This document shows, piece after piece, positions 20,944 to 29,634 of a stretch of 64,000 nucleotides of DNA. Where the stretch lies: assembly GCF_011089885.1 (NCBI RefSeq), contig NZ_JAANBD010000025.1, forward strand, positions 1 through 64,000, given 5' to 3'. Every line of letters starts with the position of its first letter. The first letter of the stretch is position 1. Made by a program: the position numbers and the translations under genes. The notes under the pieces were generated by a model, which was given only the letters and a program-made list of their open reading frames with translations, did not search any database and was not told the DNA's origin. Source of the stretch: Thioalkalivibrio sp. XN279. GTDB taxonomy: Bacteria > Pseudomonadota > Gammaproteobacteria > Steroidobacterales > XN24.

Positions 20944-22523
20944 GGCAGGCTGCCGCGCAGGCGCGCCCGGCAATGTCCGGGGCGCCGGATGCCCCGTCCG
21001 CATCTGCCGGTGATGACCGCGCTCGTCCTGCGCCGTTGTGGCTCTGTCTCGGCTTGCCGCGCCTGCCGCTGGAGGTGCGTGCAGCCGGTCGGGAAGCACA
21101 CGAGCCCTGCGTGCTGGTTGGCTCCGACGGCCGGGTGGTGCAGGCCGGCGAAGCGGCGGCAGAAGCGGGAGTCGCACCCGGATTGCCGCTCAATGCCGCC
21201 CTGGCGTTGTGCCCGGGGATGGTCGTGCTGGCGCGCGACGAGGCGGCGGAAGCGGCGGCGCTGGCGCGCCTCGCGGCCTGGGCCGGGGCGTTCACTTCCA
21301 TGGTGAGCCTGGAACCGCCGGCGGCGCTGCTGCTGGAGGTGCGCGGCAGCCTGCGGCTGTTCGGCGGCCTGGAGCCGTTGCGGCATCGGCTGCGCCGGGC
21401 CCTGGCCCGGACCGGGCATGCGGGACGCGATGCCGTGGCGCCGACGCCGCTGGCGGCCTTGTGGCTGGCGCGCGCCGGCGAGCGGGAGGCCGTCACCGAG
21501 CCGGCTGCGCTGGCCGGCCGGCTCGGGCGCCTGCGCCCCGCGGTCACTGCCTGGCCGCAGGCTACGCTGGAAAAGCTGCAGAGCCTCGGTGTCGAGACCC
21601 TGGCGGACTGCCTGCGCCTGCCCCGCGACGGCTTTGCGCGCCGCGTCGGCCGCGGCCCGCTGGCAGACCTCGACCGGGCACTGGGCCGCCTGGCCGATCC
21701 GCGTCCTGCCTTCCGCCTGCCGCCGCGTTACCGCGCCGAGGTGGAACTGGCGGCAGAGACGGGCGACACGGCCCGGCTGCAACAGGTGGCAGAGGGCCTG
21801 TTTGCGGAACTGGAAGGCTTCCTGCGCGCCTGCCAGCGCGCCGTCACCCGCATCGTGGTGCGCTTCCGGCACCTCGGCCGTGCGCCGAGCGCGCTGGGTA
21901 TCGGCCTGGCGGCGCCGGGGCTGGAGGCGGCCAGGTTCGGGGCGTTGTTCGCCGCACGCCTGGAGCGGCTGGCGCTGCCGGCACCGGTGATCGCGCTGTC
22001 GGTGGAGGCTGAGCCCGGCGAAGCGCTGATCCCCGTTCGCGTCGGATTGTTCGGCGACGAGCCCGGCAGCGAAGCCGGGCTGCAGCTGGTCGAGCGCCTG
22101 CGGGCACGACTCGGGCGCGAGGCGGTGCAGGGGCTGGCGCTGGGCGACGACCATCGTCCCGAGGCGTCCTGGGTGGTGCGGGAGCCGGGGTCGGGGGCCT
22201 GGCCGGCTGTGGACTCCCGCGCGGCTGCGGCGACGCGGGCGGGGGCGCTCGCGGCCGCCTTGCCGCGCGCCGCCAGGCCGAGCTGGCTGCTCGATCCGCC
22301 GCAGCGCCTGAGGAGTCGCGGTGGCCGACCCTGGCACGAGGGCGAACTGGTGCTGGAGCGCGGGCCTGAACGCATCGAGACCGGCTGGTGGGACGGGCAG
22401 GGGATCGCGCGCGACTACTGGGTGGCGCGGACGCCGGCCGGGGCGCGGCTGTGGGTGTTCCGACAACGGCCGGACGCGGCAGACGTCCGCCCGCAATGGT
22501 TCCTGCACGGGGTGTTCGGATGA
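20940..22523 (+). CDS. imuB: ImuB, Y-family-like mutasome hub
   Basis: A 527-residue Y-family polymerase homologue. In studied mutasomes ImuB is catalytically dead and links ImuA, DnaE2 and the beta clamp. The palm/finger (IMS) region is recognizable by [36 protein letters not shown] and [19 protein letters not shown], but the metal-binding carboxylates of active Y polymerases are not kept. A candidate but degenerate clamp-binding stretch is VGLFGDEPG near residue 365. ATG overlaps the imuA stop; the stop overlaps the dnaE2 start in the same way. Confidence 0.9.
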
Positions 22524-25500
22524 GCATGCCGCCGTATGCCGAGTTGCATTGCCTGTCGAACTTCAGTTTCCTGCGCGGCGCCTCCCACCCGGCCGAGCTG
22601 GTGGAGCGGGCGGCCGAGCTTGGCTACCGCGCCCTGGCCCTGACCGACGAGTGCTCGGTGGCCGGCGTGGTGCGGGCCTGGGAGGCGGCGCGCGAATGCG
22701 GGCTGAAGCTGATCATCGGCAGCGAGTTCCGGCTCGAGGACGGGCTGCGGCTGGTGCTGCTGGCGGCCGACCGCGAGGGCTATGGCCGCCTGTGCCGGCT
22801 CATCACGCGCGGCCGGCGCGCGGCGCCCAAGGGCGATTACCGGCTCAGCCGCGACGACCTGGTGGATGGCCAGGCCGGGGGGCCGCCCGGCTGCCTGGCG
22901 TTGTGGCTGCCGGGACAGGCGCCGGACGAGGACGAAGGTCGCTGGGTGGCGGCGCAGTTCCCCGGGCGGGCCTGGCTGGCAGTGGAGCTGTTTGCCGGTG
23001 GCGACGACGCCGCGCGGCTGGCTGCGCTCGAGGCGCTGGGTGAACGGCTCGGCCTGCCGCGCGTGGCGGCGGGCGACGTGCACATGCACGACCCGGCGCG
23101 TCGTCCACTTCAGGACCTGGTGACCGCCATCCGACTCAACACCCCACTGCACGCGCTCGGCCGGCGACTGTTTCCTAATGGCGAGCGTCACCTGCGCCCG
23201 CGCAACCGCCTGGCGCGGCTGTACCCGGCAGCACTGCTGGAAGAGAGCGTGGCCATCGCGGCACGCTGTGGCTTCACCCTCGACGAGCTCGACTGGCGTT
23301 ACCCGGCGGAGCTCGTCCCCGCCGGACAGACGCCGGCCTCCTGGCTGCGTCGACTGACGCGGGACGGCATGGCGCGACGCTGGCCCGGCGGCGCGCCGGA
23401 GACGGTGCGCCAGACCGTCGACCGCGAGCTGGCGCTGATCGAGGAACTCGGTTACGAGGCCTACTTCCTCACCGTGCACGACATCGTGCGGCACGCCCGC
23501 AGCCTGGGCATCCTGTGCCAGGGTCGCGGCTCCGCGGCGAACTCGGCAGTGTGCTTCTGCCTCGGTATCACCGAGGTGGATCCCGCACGCATGTCGGTGC
23601 TGTTCGAGCGGTTCATTTCCAAGGAGCGCAACGAGCCGCCGGACATCGACGTGGACTTCGAGCACGAGCGGCGCGAGGAAGTGATCCAGTACATCTACGC
23701 CAAGTACGGCCGCCACCGCGCCGCGCTGGCCGCCACCGTGATCCGCTACCGGCCGCGCAGCGCCCTGCGTGACGCCGGCAAGGCGCTCGGCCTGGCGCCG
23801 CTGCAGTACGACGCACTGGCGCGGGCCATGCGCTGGTGGGACGGCCGCGAGATCGCGCCGGAGCGGGTGCGCGACGCCGGCTTCGACCCGGACAACCCCG
23901 TGATCGCACGCGTGCTGGCGCTGGCGCGGCAGCTGGTCGGCAGCCCGCGTCACCTGTCCCAGCATGTCGGCGGCTTCGTCATCGCCGACGGCTGCCTGGA
24001 GGACCTGGTGCCGGTGGAGAACGCCGCCATGTCCGAGCGCACGGTGATCCAGTGGGACAAGGACGACCTCGACGCCGTCGGCATGATCAAGGTGGATGTG
24101 CTCGGGCTGGGCATGTTAAGCGCCATCCGCCGCAGCTTCGCGCTGGTCGAGAAGTTCTGCGGCCGGGGCTGGACTCTGGCCACCGTGCCGGCCGAGGACC
24201 CGGCGGTGTACGAGATGATCTCGGATGCCGACACCATGGGCGTGTTCCAGGTCGAGTCGCGCGCCCAGATGGCCATGCTGCCGCGCCTCAGGCCGCGCTG
24301 TTTCTACGACCTCGTGATCGAGATCGCCCTCATCCGCCCGGGGCCGATCCAGGGCGACATGGTGCATCCCTACCTGCGGCGCCGGAACGGCGAGGAGGCG
24401 GTGAGCTATCCCAGCGAGGAGGTGCGCCAGGTGCTGGAGCGGACGCTGGGCGTGCCCATCTTCCAGGAGCAGGTGATGCAGCTCGCCATCGTCGCGGCCG
24501 GCTTCAGCGCCGGCGAGGCCGACCAGCTGCGCCGCGCCATGGCCGCCTGGCGGCGCAAGGGCGGGCTGGGCCCCTTCGAAGAGCGTCTCATCGAGGGCAT
24601 GCGTGCGCGCGGCTACACCGCGGACTTCGCCCAGCGCATCTTCCGCCAGATCACCGGCTTCGGCGAATACGGCTTTCCCGAGTCCCATTCCGCCAGCTTC
24701 GCGCTCCTGGTCTACGTGTCCGCCTGGCTCAAGCGCCATGAGCCGGCGGCTTTCCTGTGCGCGCTCATCAACAGCCAGCCCATGGGCTTCTACGCGCCCT
24801 CGCAGCTGGTGCAGGACGCCCGGCGGCACGGCGTGGAAGTGCGGCCAGTCGACGTCGCCGCCAGCGACTGGGACTGCACCCTGGAGCCGGGCGAGGCCGG
24901 CCACGAGGAGCAGCCGGCGGCGCGGCTGGGAATGCGGCTGGTCGCGGAATTGTCCGCCGCCGGGGCGGCGCGGCTGGTGGCGGCGCGGCGCGAGCAGCCT
25001 TTCCAGGACGTGGACGACCTGGCGCGGCGGGCCCGGCTGGATCGCGGTGATCTCGGCGCGCTGGCGCGCGCCGGGGCGCTACGCGGGCTGTCCGGCCATC
25101 GCCATCGCGCCGCCTGGGCCGTGGCAGGGATCGAGGCGCCCCTGCCGCTGCTCGAGGAGGCGTCCATCCGCGAGGGGCTGCCGCTGCTCAGGGCGCCGAC
25201 CGAGGGCCGCGACATCGTCGCCGACTACCGCAGCACCGGCCTGACGCTGGGCCGCCATCCGCTGGCGCTGCTGCGTGAGCGGCTGGCCGAGGACGGCCTG
25301 GTGAGCACCGGCGAGCTGAATGCCGCGCCGCATGGCGCCTACGCCGCCTGCGCCGGCGTCGTCATCAACCGGCAGCGGCCCGGCAGCGCCAAGGGGGTGA
25401 TGTTCGTGACCCTGGAGGACGAGACCGGCCAGGCCAACATCGTGGTTTGGCAGCAGGTCTCCGAGGCCTGGCGCAAGCCGCTGCTCGGCGCGCGGCTCTT

Positions 25501-25618
25501 GGAAGTTGCGGGGCGGGTGCAGCGGGAAGGGCAGGTGGTGCACCTGGTGGCCGAGCGCATGCGCGATCGCAGTGCGCTGCTCGGGCAGCTCGACGTGCGC
25601 TCGCGGGACTTTCACTGA
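22520..25618 (+). CDS. dnaE2: Error-prone DNA polymerase DnaE2 (ImuC)
   Basis: A 1032-residue C-family polymerase of the SOS mutasome. The N-terminal PHP domain starts with [19 protein letters not shown] and includes [14 protein letters not shown]. The polymerase core has [15 protein letters not shown] with two catalytic aspartates, HVGGFVI and [21 protein letters not shown]-terminal OB-fold is seen in the [17 protein letters not shown] stretch. ATG at 22520 lies in the imuB stop (ATGA); ATG at 22526 is an alternative. It completes the lexA-imuA-imuB-dnaE2 operon, an inducible mutagenesis module. Confidence 0.94.
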
Positions 25619-25662
25619 CCGCGGCCGTGGCGCCTGCGCCGCGTCGCTGTCCCCGTGCCTGG

Positions 25663-25737
25663 CCGCGGCAGCGACCGCGCACGCTTCCCGCTTGGCTCAG
25701 ATGCCTGCGCGTGAGGCGTGCGCGTCCGCTGCCGCTG
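25663..25737 (-). repeat. Hairpin element HP1
   Basis: First of four dispersed hairpins with a common core. Read on the minus strand, the 25-nt apical core (25712-25688) opens with A and CGC, contains GGC-ATCTGA-GCC with GCA on its left and AA on its right, and closes with GCG and G. The arms at 25663-25687 and 25713-25737 pair at 21 of 25 positions. The stem sequence is unrelated to the other copies. It lies 45 nt after the dnaE2 stop and points away from blaI. Confidence 0.85.
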
Positions 25738-25841
25738 CATCGGGGCGCCTAAGCCGCCGCGTTGCATGGCCGCTGTCGTGGCTGTGCTGGCGGGCCAGGT
25801 TCAGTGAGCGGGCGGTGGTTGTGCTGTTAACAGCCCGCGGC

Positions 25842-25883
25842 TTGACAATCTCGATTACATTCGTAATCTGTAGGTAAGTTTAC
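25842..25883 (+). promoter_or_regulatory. Candidate blaI promoter with dyad operators
   Basis: -35 is a perfect TTGACA (25842-25847); a -10-like TAATCT sits at 25864-25869 (16-bp spacer). A perfect dyad GATTAC-ATTC-GTAATC (25853-25868) covers the spacer and -10, and a second, GTAA-GT-TTAC (25874-25883), lies just downstream. Both are plausible BlaI-type operators for autorepression. Another palindrome, GCTGTTAACAGC (25823-25834), sits upstream of the -35. Confidence 0.65.
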
Positions 25884-25897
25884 GGGTGTAATCAAAC

Positions 25898-26266
25898 ATG
25901 CAAATCAGTGAAGCGGAATCTGTGGTGATGCAGGCCCTTTGGCAGTCGAGCCCCTTGACGGCAGAAGACGTCTTCGCGGCGGTGGCGGAAGATCAGGACT
26001 GGCAGGTGCCGACAGTAAAGACCCTGCTCAATCGCTTACTCAAGAAGGGCGCGATCACCGCCAGGCGCGACGGCCGGCGGTTCCTTTACAGCCCCGTGCT
26101 GGACCGGGAGACATGGCTGGACCAGCAAAGCGAGAGCCTGCTTGACCGATTGTTTGGCGGACGGGTCGGGCCGATGGTTGCGCACTTCAGCGAGCGCGGC
26201 CGGCTGACGGAGAAAGACGTGGTGGAGCTGCGCCAAATCCTGGAGAAGTTGGATGACGGCAATTGA
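25898..26266 (+). CDS. blaI: BlaI/MecI/CopY-family repressor
   Basis: A 122-residue winged-helix repressor. Residues 1-70 hold the DNA-binding domain (ISEAESVVMQALWQSSPLTAEDV, then VPTVKTLLNRLLKKGAI, ARRDGRRFLYSP); the C-terminus is the dimerisation helix with the usual cleavage region. In studied systems a membrane M56 peptidase inactivates the repressor. That peptidase is encoded immediately downstream with a 14-bp overlap. Dyads overlapping its own promoter suggest autorepression. The target outside this operon is unknown; no beta-lactamase gene is nearby. Confidence 0.9.
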   Translation: MQISEAESVVMQALWQSSPLTAEDVFAAVAEDQDWQVPTVKTLLNRLLKKGAITARRDGRRFLYSPVLDRETWLDQQSESLLDRLFGGRVGPMVAHFSERGRLTEKDVVELRQILEKLDDGN

Positions 26267-27488
26267 GAGCTGGTCTCTGTTAGCGGAAATCACGTTGGCG
26301 ACATCAGTTGCCGTCCTACTGGTACTGGCGATGCGACGCCCTGTGCGCCATGCCTTCGGCGCGGGCGCGGCCTACGGGCTGTGGGCGATGGTGCCCGTGA
26401 TGCTGCTGGCAGCGCTTCTCCCAGCGGCAATCGAGCCGGTGCTTCCGCTACAGGGCGTGGCTGCCCCGGTACTGGATGCCATCACGCCGTCGGCATCCTC
26501 ACAGGATACGGGCACAGATGCCTTCGCTTGGATGCCCTGGGCTTGGGGCAGCGGCGTCATGACAATGCTCGCCATCCTGGGGTGGCAACAGCACCGTTTC
26601 TTGGCTGGCCTGGGCCCGCTGCGCCGGCGCCCGGATGGCCTCTACCAGAGCCTTGCGACGCGTGGTCTGCCCGCAGTGGTGGGCTGGCGGCCGCGCATCG
26701 TGCTGCCAGGTGATTTCGAACAGCGCTACAGCGCGGCGGAATGTGAGCTGGTACTGGCGCATGAGCGTGAACACCTGCGCCGCGGCGATCTCCCAGCCTG
26801 CCTGGTGGCCGCCCTGTTTTGCTGCCTGTTCTGGTTCAACCCCCTGATTCAGTTCGCCGCGCGCTGTTTCCGGCACGACCAGGAGCTGGCCTGCGACACC
26901 GGGGTGTTGCGCCGTTTCCCGAAGCATCGCCACACCTACGCCAAGGCCATGCTCAAGACCCAGCTTGCAAACCAGCCGCTGCCGCTCGGCTGTTACTGGT
27001 CCGGGTTCCATCTGATCAAGGAGCGCCTTGCCATGTTGTCCCGTCCTTTGCCTTCCCTGTCGCGCCGGCTCGGTGGCCTGGTCGCAGTCTCAGTCCTGGT
27101 GGTTTCCGCCGCCGCGGCCGCCTGGGCATCGCAGCCCGGTCATCCAGCTTTAGTGCCGCCCGGCAAGCTGTTGCTTGAACTGGCCATCCAGGTGGACGAA
27201 GAGCCCGTTCGCGACATCCGCGCCGTGGTGGTCCCCGGGGTGCCCTACGAAGAACGTTTCGACCATGCGGAGCAGTCCTGGTATACACGCTGGACCACCG
27301 TGCAGCTCGATGACGGAACCTTCGATCTCAGCGCGACGCTCGAGCGGGATGGCGAAGTTCTGGCGGAGCCGCGCATCGTTTTGCGCGACGAAGCCTCGAT
27401 CCATATCGGCAGGGAAACGGAGATCGGCGACTTCAATGGCTTGAGCATCTACCTCCGGATCAGTGCCGGCGCTCCGGCGGAGCCCTGA
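26253..27488 (+). CDS. BlaR1/MecR1-like M56 membrane metallopeptidase without penicillin-binding sensor
   Basis: A 411-residue membrane peptidase: helices near 10-27, 40-60, 97-113 and 183-200, then a last helix around 274-293. The zinc motif HEREH is at 170-174, and the ELACD (211-215) provides the third ligand. The cytoplasmic protease loop faces BlaI. Classical BlaR1 ends in a 250-residue penicillin-binding sensor with SxxK; here the periplasmic tail is only about 118 residues (294-411), beta-rich, with no SxxK, SxN or KTG motif. The signal sensed is therefore probably not a beta-lactam. ATG overlaps the blaI stop region. Confidence 0.85.
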   Translation: MTAIESWSLLAEITLATSVAVLLVLAMRRPVRHAFGAGAAYGLWAMVPVMLLAALLPAAIEPVLPLQGVAAPVLDAITPSASSQDTGTDAFAWMPWAWGSGVMTMLAILGWQQHRFLAGLGPLRRRPDGLYQSLATRGLPAVVGWRPRIVLPGDFEQRYSAAECELVLAHEREHLRRGDLPACLVAALFCCLFWFNPLIQFAARCFRHDQELACDTGVLRRFPKHRHTYAKAMLKTQLANQPLPLGCYWSGFHLIKERLAMLSRPLPSLSRRLGGLVAVSVLVVSAAAAAWASQPGHPALVPPGKLLLELAIQVDEEPVRDIRAVVVPGVPYEERFDHAEQSWYTRWTTVQLDDGTFDLSATLERDGEVLAEPRIVLRDEASIHIGRETEIGDFNGLSIYLRISAGAPAEP

Positions 27489-27494
27489 TCAGCA

Positions 27495-27563
27495 GGGCCG
27501 CGGACTCGTCATGTTCACTCGCAGGCATCTGAGCCAAGAGGGAACATGACGAGGTCGCAGCCC
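27495..27563 (+). repeat. Hairpin element HP2
   Basis: Second hairpin, beginning 7 nt after the BlaR1-like stop. The core (27517-27541) opens with A and CTC, contains GGC-ATCTGA-GCC with GCA left and AA right, and closes with GAG and G. The inner twelve pairs, CTCGTCATGTTC with GAACATGACGAG, are perfect. Pairing continues to 27495/27563 with two mismatches and one G-T. It faces opposite to HP1, so the pair brackets blaI-blaR1. Confidence 0.88.
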
Positions 27564-27620
27564 GGTCCCGGAGCGGTCGACCCGGCCTGCCCCGGCGCTG
27601 CACCGGTTCGCCCGGGCCCG

Positions 27621-27649
27621 GAAACGCAAACCGGGCCTCACGGCCCGGT
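27621..27649 (-). terminator. Rho-independent terminator of the small acidic gene
   Basis: Read leftwards, ACCGGGCC-GTGA-GGCCCGGT forms a perfect eight-pair stem (27649-27630), followed by TTTGCGTTT. It lies 37 nt after the stop of the gene at 27687-27911. HP2 (27495-27563) is just beyond it. Confidence 0.75.
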
Positions 27650-27686
27650 CTGCTGCGCAGGGTCTGCGGCCGGAGGCCGCGCGCCC

Positions 27687-27911
27687 TCACTCGAAATCGA
27701 AACTGTCCAGGTCGGCCAGTTCCTTGGCGGCCCGCTTCATCTCCATGTACTCCTCCACGCGCCGGCGCGCGTTCTCGCCGGCGTGCCGCGAGGAGGCGCT
27801 GGAGGGCAGGTCCTCAAGGAGGCCAGGGAAGTCCTCTTCTTCCATTTCATCCTCTTCACCATCGAAGGAGTCTTCGATGTCGTCGTTGGTGTCGTCGGTG
27901 TCCGTTTTCAT
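27687..27911 (-). CDS. Small acidic protein, PA3496-like
   Basis: A 74-residue protein with a very acidic N-terminal half (DTDDTNDD, then EEDEMEEEDFPG) and a charged helical C-terminus (ENARRRVEEYMEMKRAAKEL, ending in DSFDFE). This layout resembles the PA3496 family of small gammaproteobacterial proteins, described as putative envelope-integrity factors, but I base this only on pattern. No signal or membrane segment. ATG at 27911 is preferred; a TTG at 27935 would add eight residues. It stands alone, with its own terminator, between hairpins HP2 and HP3. Confidence 0.7.
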   Translation of the reverse strand: MKTDTDDTNDDIEDSFDGEEDEMEEEDFPGLLEDLPSSASSRHAGENARRRVEEYMEMKRAAKELADLDSFDFE

Positions 27912-28048
27912 AACTTCCGGCCAGGGACGGTCCAAAATGCCCCGCAGGGGGTCCTAGGGCGCGACATATACATCGACCTGCGCGCGGGGGCAATAGCCAA
28001 TTTCCAAATCCGCGCCGCCCGCCGTCGCCTGACCCGCCTTGCCCGGCC

Positions 28049-28122
28049 GCGCGCGGGACCCCGTGACGGCCCCTCTCGGTTAATGAGATGCCCTCGAGTG
28101 GCCGTCACGGGGTCCCGCGCGC
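28049..28122 (-). repeat. Hairpin element HP3, divergent core
   Basis: The most stable copy: arms 28049-28071 and 28100-28122 are a perfect 23-bp inverted repeat. Read on the minus strand, the 28-nt apex keeps the opening A and CTC, the GGCATCT and the closing GAG and G of the family. Its centre is changed and three bases longer (CATTAACC in place of GAGCC). The stem shares nothing with the other copies. Confidence 0.85.
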
Positions 28123-28298
28123 TACCGAGCCGGTTTCCGGTACCGCCGAGCGCGTTGTGACTGCAGGGGCTCGCGCCTCGTGGCGCCGGAGGGAGGCGGG
28201 CTGTGCCGCATGTCCGTGGCAACCGGGTCACCCCGACGTTGCTGGGCCTGCAGCCCGGAGAGCCCGACGGGGATGTGGCCTGCACGGCCTACGCAGCA

Positions 28299-28367
28299 GT
28301 GGCGGGACAGCGCATGTCTCACTCGCAGGCATCTGAGCCAAGAGGGAGGCATGCGCTGGTCCGCCAC
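28299..28367 (+). repeat. Hairpin element HP4
   Basis: Core 28321-28345 is base-for-base identical to that of HP2. Arms 28299-28320 and 28346-28367 pair at 19 of 22 positions (inner part CAGCGCATG-TCTC with GAG-GCATGCGCTG). One of the exceptions, T opposite G, would be a wobble pair in RNA. It lies 41 nt from the end of gspF. Confidence 0.87.
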
Positions 28368-28407
28368 GGTCCCGAAACGGGCGCGTCCTGTGCCGCACTC
28401 GGTCGGG

Positions 28408-29634
28408 TCAGGCAACGAGCTGGTTGAGCTGGAAGATGGGCAGCAGGATCGCCAGCACGATGGCCAGCACGATCACGCCCATGAACAGGATCAGCACCGG
28501 CTCCATGATCGAAAGCATGGCGCCGACGAGGCTGTCGACCTCGCGCTCCTGGTTGTCGGCTGCGCGCTCGAGCATGTTCTCCAGCTCGCCACTGGCCTCG
28601 CCGCTGGAGATCAGGTGCATGGTCATGGGCGGAAACAGGCGGCTGGCGCCCAGCGAGCGGCCGAGCGGCGCGCCCTCGCGCACGCGCACGGCGGTCTCTT
28701 CGATGGCCTCGCGCATGGGCACGTTGCCGACCACGTCGCCGGAGATGCGCAGCGCTTCCAGCACCGGCACGCCGCTGCCGGCAAGGATGCTCAGCGTGCG
28801 GGTGAAGCGGGCGGTGTTGATGCCGCGGGTGAGCCGGCCGACCAGGGGCAGCCGCAGCAGGAAGCGGTCCCAGCGCCGACGGAATTCGAGCCGGCGCAGC
28901 AGCCGCGAGAAAATGAACAGGCCGAGGGCAATGACCCCGAGCAGGACGAAGCCGTAGTCACGCAGGAAGTCGCTGCCGGCAATCATGGCGCGAGTCAGGC
29001 CCGGCAGTTCCTGGCCGGTGTTCTCGAACACGCCCACGACCTTGGGCACGACGTAGACGAGCAAGGCGCTGACGATGAAGATGGCCAGCGTTACCAGGAT
29101 CACGGGGTAGATCAGCGCGTGCGAAATACGCTGGCGGAGCTGCTGGCGGCTTTCGGTGTAGTCCGCGAGGCGCTCGAGCACGGGGTCGAGATGCCCCGAC
29201 TGCTCGCCCGCGGCGACGGTGGCGCGGTAGATCTCGGGGAAGGCCTGCGGGAATTCCCCCAGGCCCGACGCAAGGGTGTGGCCCTCCATCACCCGGGAAC
29301 GCACGCCGAGGATGATGCTTTTCAGCCGCGGCTTCTCGCTTTGCTGGCCCACGGCGAGCAAGGTTTCCTCCAGCGGCATGCCGGAACGCAGCAGGGTGGC
29401 CAGCTGGCGTGTCACCAGCGCGAGGTCGGCGGCGCTGATGCCGCGCCGCAGGCTGAGACCGGGCTTGCCGCTCGAGGCACTGCGCCGCTGGCGCTCCATG
29501 ACTTCGTTGACCTGCGTCGGCAGCAGGCCCCGGTCGCGCAGCAGCTGGCGCACCTGGCGCGGGGTGTCGCCCTCCAGCACGCCCTTGTGCTGGCGTCCGC
29601 CGCGGTCGACTGCGGTGTATTCGAATGCACCCAT
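28408..29634 (-). CDS. gspF: Type II secretion inner-membrane protein GspF
   Basis: A 408-residue polytopic platform protein of the type II secretion system. It begins GAFEYTAVDRGGRQHKGVLEGD, typical of GspF, and has two homologous GspF cytoplasmic domains (about 70-195 and 275-395), each with a QL.LLR/LRSG segment, separated and followed by membrane helices. It anchors the GspE ATPase, encoded upstream with 16 nt between. It is the last gene of a gspC-D-E-F set; the pseudopilin genes gspG-K do not follow. Confidence 0.95.
   Translation of the reverse strand: MGAFEYTAVDRGGRQHKGVLEGDTPRQVRQLLRDRGLLPTQVNEVMERQRRSASSGKPGLSLRRGISAADLALVTRQLATLLRSGMPLEETLLAVGQQSEKPRLKSIILGVRSRVMEGHTLASGLGEFPQAFPEIYRATVAAGEQSGHLDPVLERLADYTESRQQLRQRISHALIYPVILVTLAIFIVSALLVYVVPKVVGVFENTGQELPGLTRAMIAGSDFLRDYGFVLLGVIALGLFIFSRLLRRLEFRRRWDRFLLRLPLVGRLTRGINTARFTRTLSILAGSGVPVLEALRISGDVVGNVPMREAIEETAVRVREGAPLGRSLGASRLFPPMTMHLISSGEASGELENMLERAADNQEREVDSLVGAMLSIMEPVLILFMGVIVLAIVLAILLPIFQLNQLVA

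Follow-up and report, generated by a model that had tools for sequence, protein, structure and literature searches.

Hairpin-forming miniature inverted-repeat transposable elements (MITEs), NEMIS and ERIC among them, are conserved along their whole length and end in transposase-type inverted repeats. The repetitive extragenic palindromic (REP) sequences of the GTAG superfamily have stems of 6-13 bp, tiny loops (2-3 bp) and a conserved sequence, and they travel with genes for REP-associated tyrosine transposases (RAYTs) (PMC3733652). REPINs keep their ends (16-mers) and vary in the middle, where compensatory changes have been reported (PMC3116915). Template switching between inverted repeats, in turn, homogenizes the arms and can invert the spacer (PMC8604942), and hairpin stems that are perfect and compensated have been proposed to arise and persist through it (PMC8794818). 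Here we describe four hairpins, HP1 to HP4, in a stretch of 64,000 nt from Thioalkalivibrio sp. XN279 (contig NZ_JAANBD010000025.1, positions 1 to 64,000; hereafter the window), in which a constant apex sits on long stems of changing sequence that remain paired. They probably belong to a dispersed extragenic family resembling REPs and bacterial interspersed mosaic elements (BIMEs) and representing a new structural type: a long hairpin capped by a conserved core with G.A mismatches.

The four hairpins had been picked out in an earlier reading of the sequence alone. Their positions and folding agree with it: each carries an apical core of 25-28 nt, and 0 of 200 dinucleotide shuffles fold as well. 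HP1 lies at 25659..25741 on the minus strand (core type A, 25688-25712; DNA folding z-score -4.4; covariance-model match 91.2 bits) and HP2 at 27488..27570 on the plus strand (core type A, 27517-27541; -5.8; 86.6 bits). HP3, with a perfect stem of 23 bp, occupies 28043..28128 on the minus strand (core type B, 28072-28099; -9.4; 81.1 bits), and HP4 follows at 28292..28374 on the plus strand (core type A, 28321-28345; -6.5; 86.4 bits). Core A reads A-CTC-GCA-GGCATCTGAGCC-AA-GAG-G. Its 25-nt copies in HP2 and HP4 are identical, as had been claimed, and relative to these the CTC/GAG triplet of HP1 is altered by compensated changes. The core B of HP3, 28 nt long, reads A-CTC-GA-GGGCATCTCATTAACC-GA-GAG-G. 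The further claim that the stems have no sequence in common was slightly too strong: their near-perfect pairing is confirmed, but HP1, HP2, and HP4 share a GGAC...GGTC stem block about 13 bp below the core, with two mismatches in it, G.T and A.G.

A pattern search of the XN279 genome returned further cores that fold alike. A covariance model built from 11 copies gave 22-25 matches in the 3.13 Mb genome (genome-wide statistics throughout are based on fetched loci and our own gene caller), and a second model, built from other core variants, brought the totals to about 61 hairpins in XN279, about 40 in Thioalkalivibrio sp. XN8 (G001), its sister species, and about 15 in another genome of the genus, G002. 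The possibility that the window holds the only four copies thus falls away. In the genus, the stems measure 23-26 bp and the cores 24-28 nt. Across the 11 copies, two-sided changes occur at 22 of the 29 pairs, and 93.4% of cells are paired, where shuffling leaves 66.3%. Covariation scores 0.69, compared with 0.19 for shuffled alignments and at most 0.18 for slid ones. In a second analysis, two-sided changes occur at 14 of 15 pairs, pairing reaches 95.9% (64.3% in the control), and the score is 0.87, compared with 0.23. The proposal of the sequence-only reading, a constant apex on freely varying paired stems that marks a family and not chance, is supported.

Only about 24 nt of an element of 75-130 nt are conserved. 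In an alignment of 44 copies, the general core is GAGCG-(~14 nt, usually TAAGANTTC)-AGCGA. It contains the tandem G.A mismatches G14.A40 and A15.G39 and the pairs G16-C38 and C17-G37, with G18 opposite A36; core B follows the same design, with GG/CC replacing GC/GC. The inner pair 16-38 shifts from G-C through G-U to A-U, and therefore even the core covaries.

A strand that folds tolerates G.T and purine pairs and not their complements, A.C and C.T. When the stem mismatches of 101 hairpins are oriented by the core, G.T outnumbers A.C by 151 to 20, and A.G, G.G, and G.A together outnumber pyrimidine.pyrimidine mismatches by 181 to 15. Conserved internal mismatches around positions 3, 16-17, and 23-24 contribute to this bias, but it persists at the remaining, otherwise well-paired positions (G.T 61, A.C 12). 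From this asymmetry, the GAGCG...AGCGA strand is the one whose fold was kept, and RNA and single-stranded DNA fit this result alike.

In G077, a distant genome of another family, the arms span 26-58 bp and 303 of 316 pairs (96%) are Watson-Crick. Arms of different G077 copies are nearly unrelated: compared in register, they have an identity of 0.37, against 0.29 expected from composition. A further family of palindromes in the same genome, GGGGACAGTGACCCTAATT..., has loops that vary (L220 7189-7288, L257 964-1075, L258 909-999, and L259 939-1016), and G071 carries an unrelated repeat, a tandem array of GTCGCGGCTCGCGCCGCTCCTACA hairpins (L252 1564-2127).

Outside XN279, the distribution is patchy. 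Among 59 relatives, the 11-copy model matched in only two genomes, both of the same genus, and a pattern scan of public genomes located the same core in Woeseiaceae metagenome genomes. A third, core-centered model matched in 13 of 396 genomes of the order, across four families, and among 369 genomes of the class it added one other genome only, a weak match in the same order; searches this wide applied strict filters and scored the best candidates alone, and therefore do not prove absence elsewhere. One core, in G116 (L230 3357-3535), sits inside a 76-bp perfect palindrome that reaches the contig end and could be an assembly fold-back; it was set aside. A phage or plasmid origin was rejected, as the two-hairpin unit had no match in the phage or plasmid collections and the core none in viral contigs.

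Most hairpins come in outward-facing inverted pairs. XN279 has about 24 two-hairpin loci, invariably with the minus-strand hairpin on the left and the plus-strand hairpin on the right, about 60-260 bp apart. HP3 and HP4 form such a unit (28043..28374), an inverted pair with the 5′ feet face to face and about 164 bp between them; this is the standard layout of the family, recurring at the ~24 loci. Four of the units are homologous across about 400 bp including the spacer, some of them oppositely oriented. In most copies of the genus, the stem is preceded by a foot, GCAG or GTAG, which is not evident in the Woeseiaceae and G077 copies. In G002, two two-hairpin units flank an extra ACR3-like transporter gene (L173 2292-5218), where XN279 has one unit (L077), and another locus (L174 3181-6205) holds five hairpins, two pairs and a single one, separated by gaps of 1.6 kb and 0.9 kb without called genes.

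The placement relative to genes is strict. All 61 hairpins lie outside called genes, and 23 of 37 loci are convergent, 14 tandem (one pair among them), and none divergent, with one more, at a contig end, left undetermined; of the remaining gaps of 80 bp or more at these loci, 4% are convergent and 52% divergent. The convergent excess has P ~1e-22, a value computed from simple gene calls by our own script on loci chosen around the hairpins. In tandem contexts, the orientation of the hairpins relative to the genes is inconsistent, with 10 of 20 each way. In the window, HP1 lies 47 bp 3′ of a dnaE2-like polymerase gene (22520..25618, plus strand), whose name was read from the sequence without a domain search. 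HP2 stands immediately 3′ of the second of two plus-strand genes, BlaI-like and M56/BlaR1-like (25898..27488), which lie between HP1 and HP2, and HP4 is 40 bp 3′ of a gspF-like gene on the minus strand (28408..29634) whose 3′ end points towards it; these names were likewise read from the sequence. A short, ordinary G+C-rich hairpin (ACCGGGCCTCACGGCCCGGT, 27628-27652), kept in XN8, lies between HP2 and a small acidic open reading frame.

Comparison between genomes indicates that sites last while their occupants turn over. HP1, HP2, and HP4 are kept in place in XN8, where the orthologs of HP2 and HP4 each show a compensated T-A to G-C change, and HP3 is missing from the orthologous site. At other orthologous sites, the occupants have been replaced, since hairpins at different loci of one species have a likeness of 0.90-0.96 and orthologs one of 0.69-0.80. 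Inversions at fixed sites, in turn, reveal dynamics at the level of DNA. Between L145 of XN279 and L065 of XN8, the 24-nt core is an exact reverse complement with both arms unchanged, and between L137 and L182 a whole two-hairpin unit is inverted within collinear flanks. A 141-bp palindrome of G077 has short orthologous intergenic regions in G033, G134, and G081 that hold neither arm; either G077 therefore gained it in one piece or the other genomes lost it in one piece, and it was not copied from one host flank. The sequence-only reading had offered, as one option, an element that inserts into palindromes; these armless empty sites do not support it, and we rejected both insertion into a pre-existing palindrome and the copying of one host flank as an arm.

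We propose that inverted pairs with facing 5′ feet spread and turn over as a unit of about 230-400 bp, and that the conserved core on the folded strand may be recognized by some enzyme or factor. Each arm would be recopied from the other by template switching during replication, so that stems could drift and yet stay paired, which would account for the free stem sequence. Template switching is consistent with the exact core inversion and with arms that are long and perfect, and the arms are probably kept identical in this way at the level of DNA. At the 3′ ends of transcripts, the hairpins might act as a barrier or stabilizer, or merely be tolerated. We think that they probably do act at gene 3′ ends, and their placement behind genes and avoidance of promoter regions could come either from such a role or from selection against insertion elsewhere. 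A bolder version, which we put forward tentatively as possible, holds that they are selfish or domesticated DNA hairpins defined by their tip alone, the core on one folded strand being recognized by some factor and the arms, continually rewritten by template switching or captured anew in each copy, having no sequence to conserve.

Several observations weigh against this account. Within the genus, the comparison of orthologs finds more one-sided than two-sided changes, in a count that takes in pairs beyond the stem, and so does not bear out rapid recopying of the arms there. The empty sites are too diverged for a target-site duplication to be defined. A candidate mobilizer is also lacking: the XN279 genome, the richest in copies (~61), has no match to the Y1 transposase family PF01797, and within the loci inspected no core hairpin lies near the Y1 genes of carriers (XN8, G002, G077, G269, G669, and others). 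Finally, compensated stems could also come from selection for a folded RNA.

That last point leads to a structured RNA family, which we regard as somewhat unlikely. The core strand would form the 3′ untranslated end of the adjacent gene's message, and a protein at the apex would either halt transcription or shield the 3′ end; where two genes converge, a message would run through the reversed hairpin before it came to the correctly oriented one. Massive covariation, a tolerance of G.T and purine.purine mismatches on one strand, strict 3′-end placement with none in promoter regions, and sites kept between species despite a replaced occupant are all what such a family should display. However, Rfam matched only tRNAs in the window and, on related hairpins, only microRNA models far below their cut-offs, in line with the earlier failure to recognize any Rfam family. 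No T-run follows the stems, which led us to reject an intrinsic terminator, and 0 terminator-like sites were found between 25500 and 28500 of the window, as expected from the earlier judgment that these are not simple terminators. A family of only about 37 loci could not be a general terminator in any case, the inconsistent orientation in tandem contexts (10 of 20 hairpins each way) also counts against it, and near-perfect Watson-Crick arms of 34-58 bp go beyond what selection on RNA would need.

It is improbable that the hairpins are the ends of single-strand DNA transposons of the IS200/IS605 or RAYT type, that is, true REPs beside which a Y1 HUH transposase cuts. One folded strand is what a single-strand DNA substrate would require, the inverted doublets and 3′-end location are those of REPs, and in the genus the G[CT]AG foot by the stem is reminiscent of the GTAG tag that REPs bear (PMC3733652). 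Copies from Woeseiaceae and G077 have not kept this foot, however, and REP stems are 6-13 bp long and conserved in sequence (PMC3733652). Over 15 genomes searched, a RAYT/Y1 mobilizer was rejected, being missing from the genome with ~61 copies and never adjoining the hairpins elsewhere in the loci inspected. The two Y1/RAYT-type genes of XN8 adjoin GGGGACTGTCCCC palindromes of their own (L165 2222-2291 and L166 5491-5536), of the GGGGWSAS type described for TIRYT genes. Composite or cassette-like mobile units, with a hairpin at either end of cargo genes such as the BlaI/BlaR1-like pair, are very improbable. HP1 (minus) and HP2 (plus) do face each other around these genes, and G002 has two pairs around its extra ACR3-like gene against one pair in XN279. 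XN8, however, has both hairpins together with the intervening genes, so that no movement as a unit is seen and the genes are not evidently mobile cargo, and a cargo-bearing composite here was rejected. In almost every pair, moreover, the hairpins are separated by nothing more than a non-coding spacer of 60-260 bp.

Repeat families are normally found by sequence similarity, and families like this one are easily missed because so little of each element is conserved. Our literature search found no description of a tip-conserved hairpin element, most subscription journals lying outside its coverage. If the tip-only class is real, it would be a repeat family invisible to ordinary similarity search and found only by a structure-aware one. 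If template switching keeps the arms paired, the family would record in nature, and on a large scale, a mutation process known mostly from reporter and rRNA genes, and it would warn against taking massive covariation as a sure sign of a functional RNA. Should the folded strand prove instead to be an RNA with a function or a single-strand DNA substrate, the factor that recognizes it remains to be found.

Among known systems, hairpin MITEs (NEMIS, ERIC, and others; partly PMC3733652) are likewise small, non-coding, dispersed repeats that fold, but only the apex is conserved in the hairpins described here. Integron attC sites, which have R′ and R″ core sites and a nearby integrase, were excluded by reading the sequence alone, no search aimed at them having been made. 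The terminal inverted repeat (TIR) families found by TIRYT genes, with the GGGGWSAS motif, are also long self-complementary repeats, some of them dimers (PMC3733652); in contrast, the XN279 copies lack GGGGWSAS, conserve the apex, and have no transposase gene between them. Quasipalindrome correction likewise homogenizes arms into perfectly matched, compensated stems and inverts the spacer exactly (PMC8794818, PMC8604942), although those papers treat a mutation process at scattered sites and not a dispersed family with a conserved core. As in REPINs (PMC3116915), two inverted palindromes form the dispersed unit, with about 24 pairs here, whereas each hairpin of the present family keeps its apex, varies its stem, and folds separately from its partner. 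The likeness to REPs and BIMEs (PMC3733652) lies in the many extragenic palindromes and the inverted doublets near the 3′ ends of convergent and tandem genes; the G[CT]AG foot, seen in most genus copies and not evident in those of Woeseiaceae and G077, recalls the GTAG tag. The differences from REPs (PMC3733652) are the stems of 23-58 bp, the apical core of 24-28 nt, and the free but paired stem sequence, and no associated RAYT was found for the tip-conserved hairpins. The earlier reading, which recognized no REP, is supported, and the hairpins match neither the published REP nor the published REPIN design, given the 6-13 bp stems of the former (PMC3733652) and the conserved ends of the latter (PMC3116915). 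We place them outside the GTAG REP family because two of its defining features, the stem-and-loop design and a RAYT gene flanked by the repeat, were tested and are not those of these hairpins; by look and location, we file them as repeats of the REP/BIME kind.

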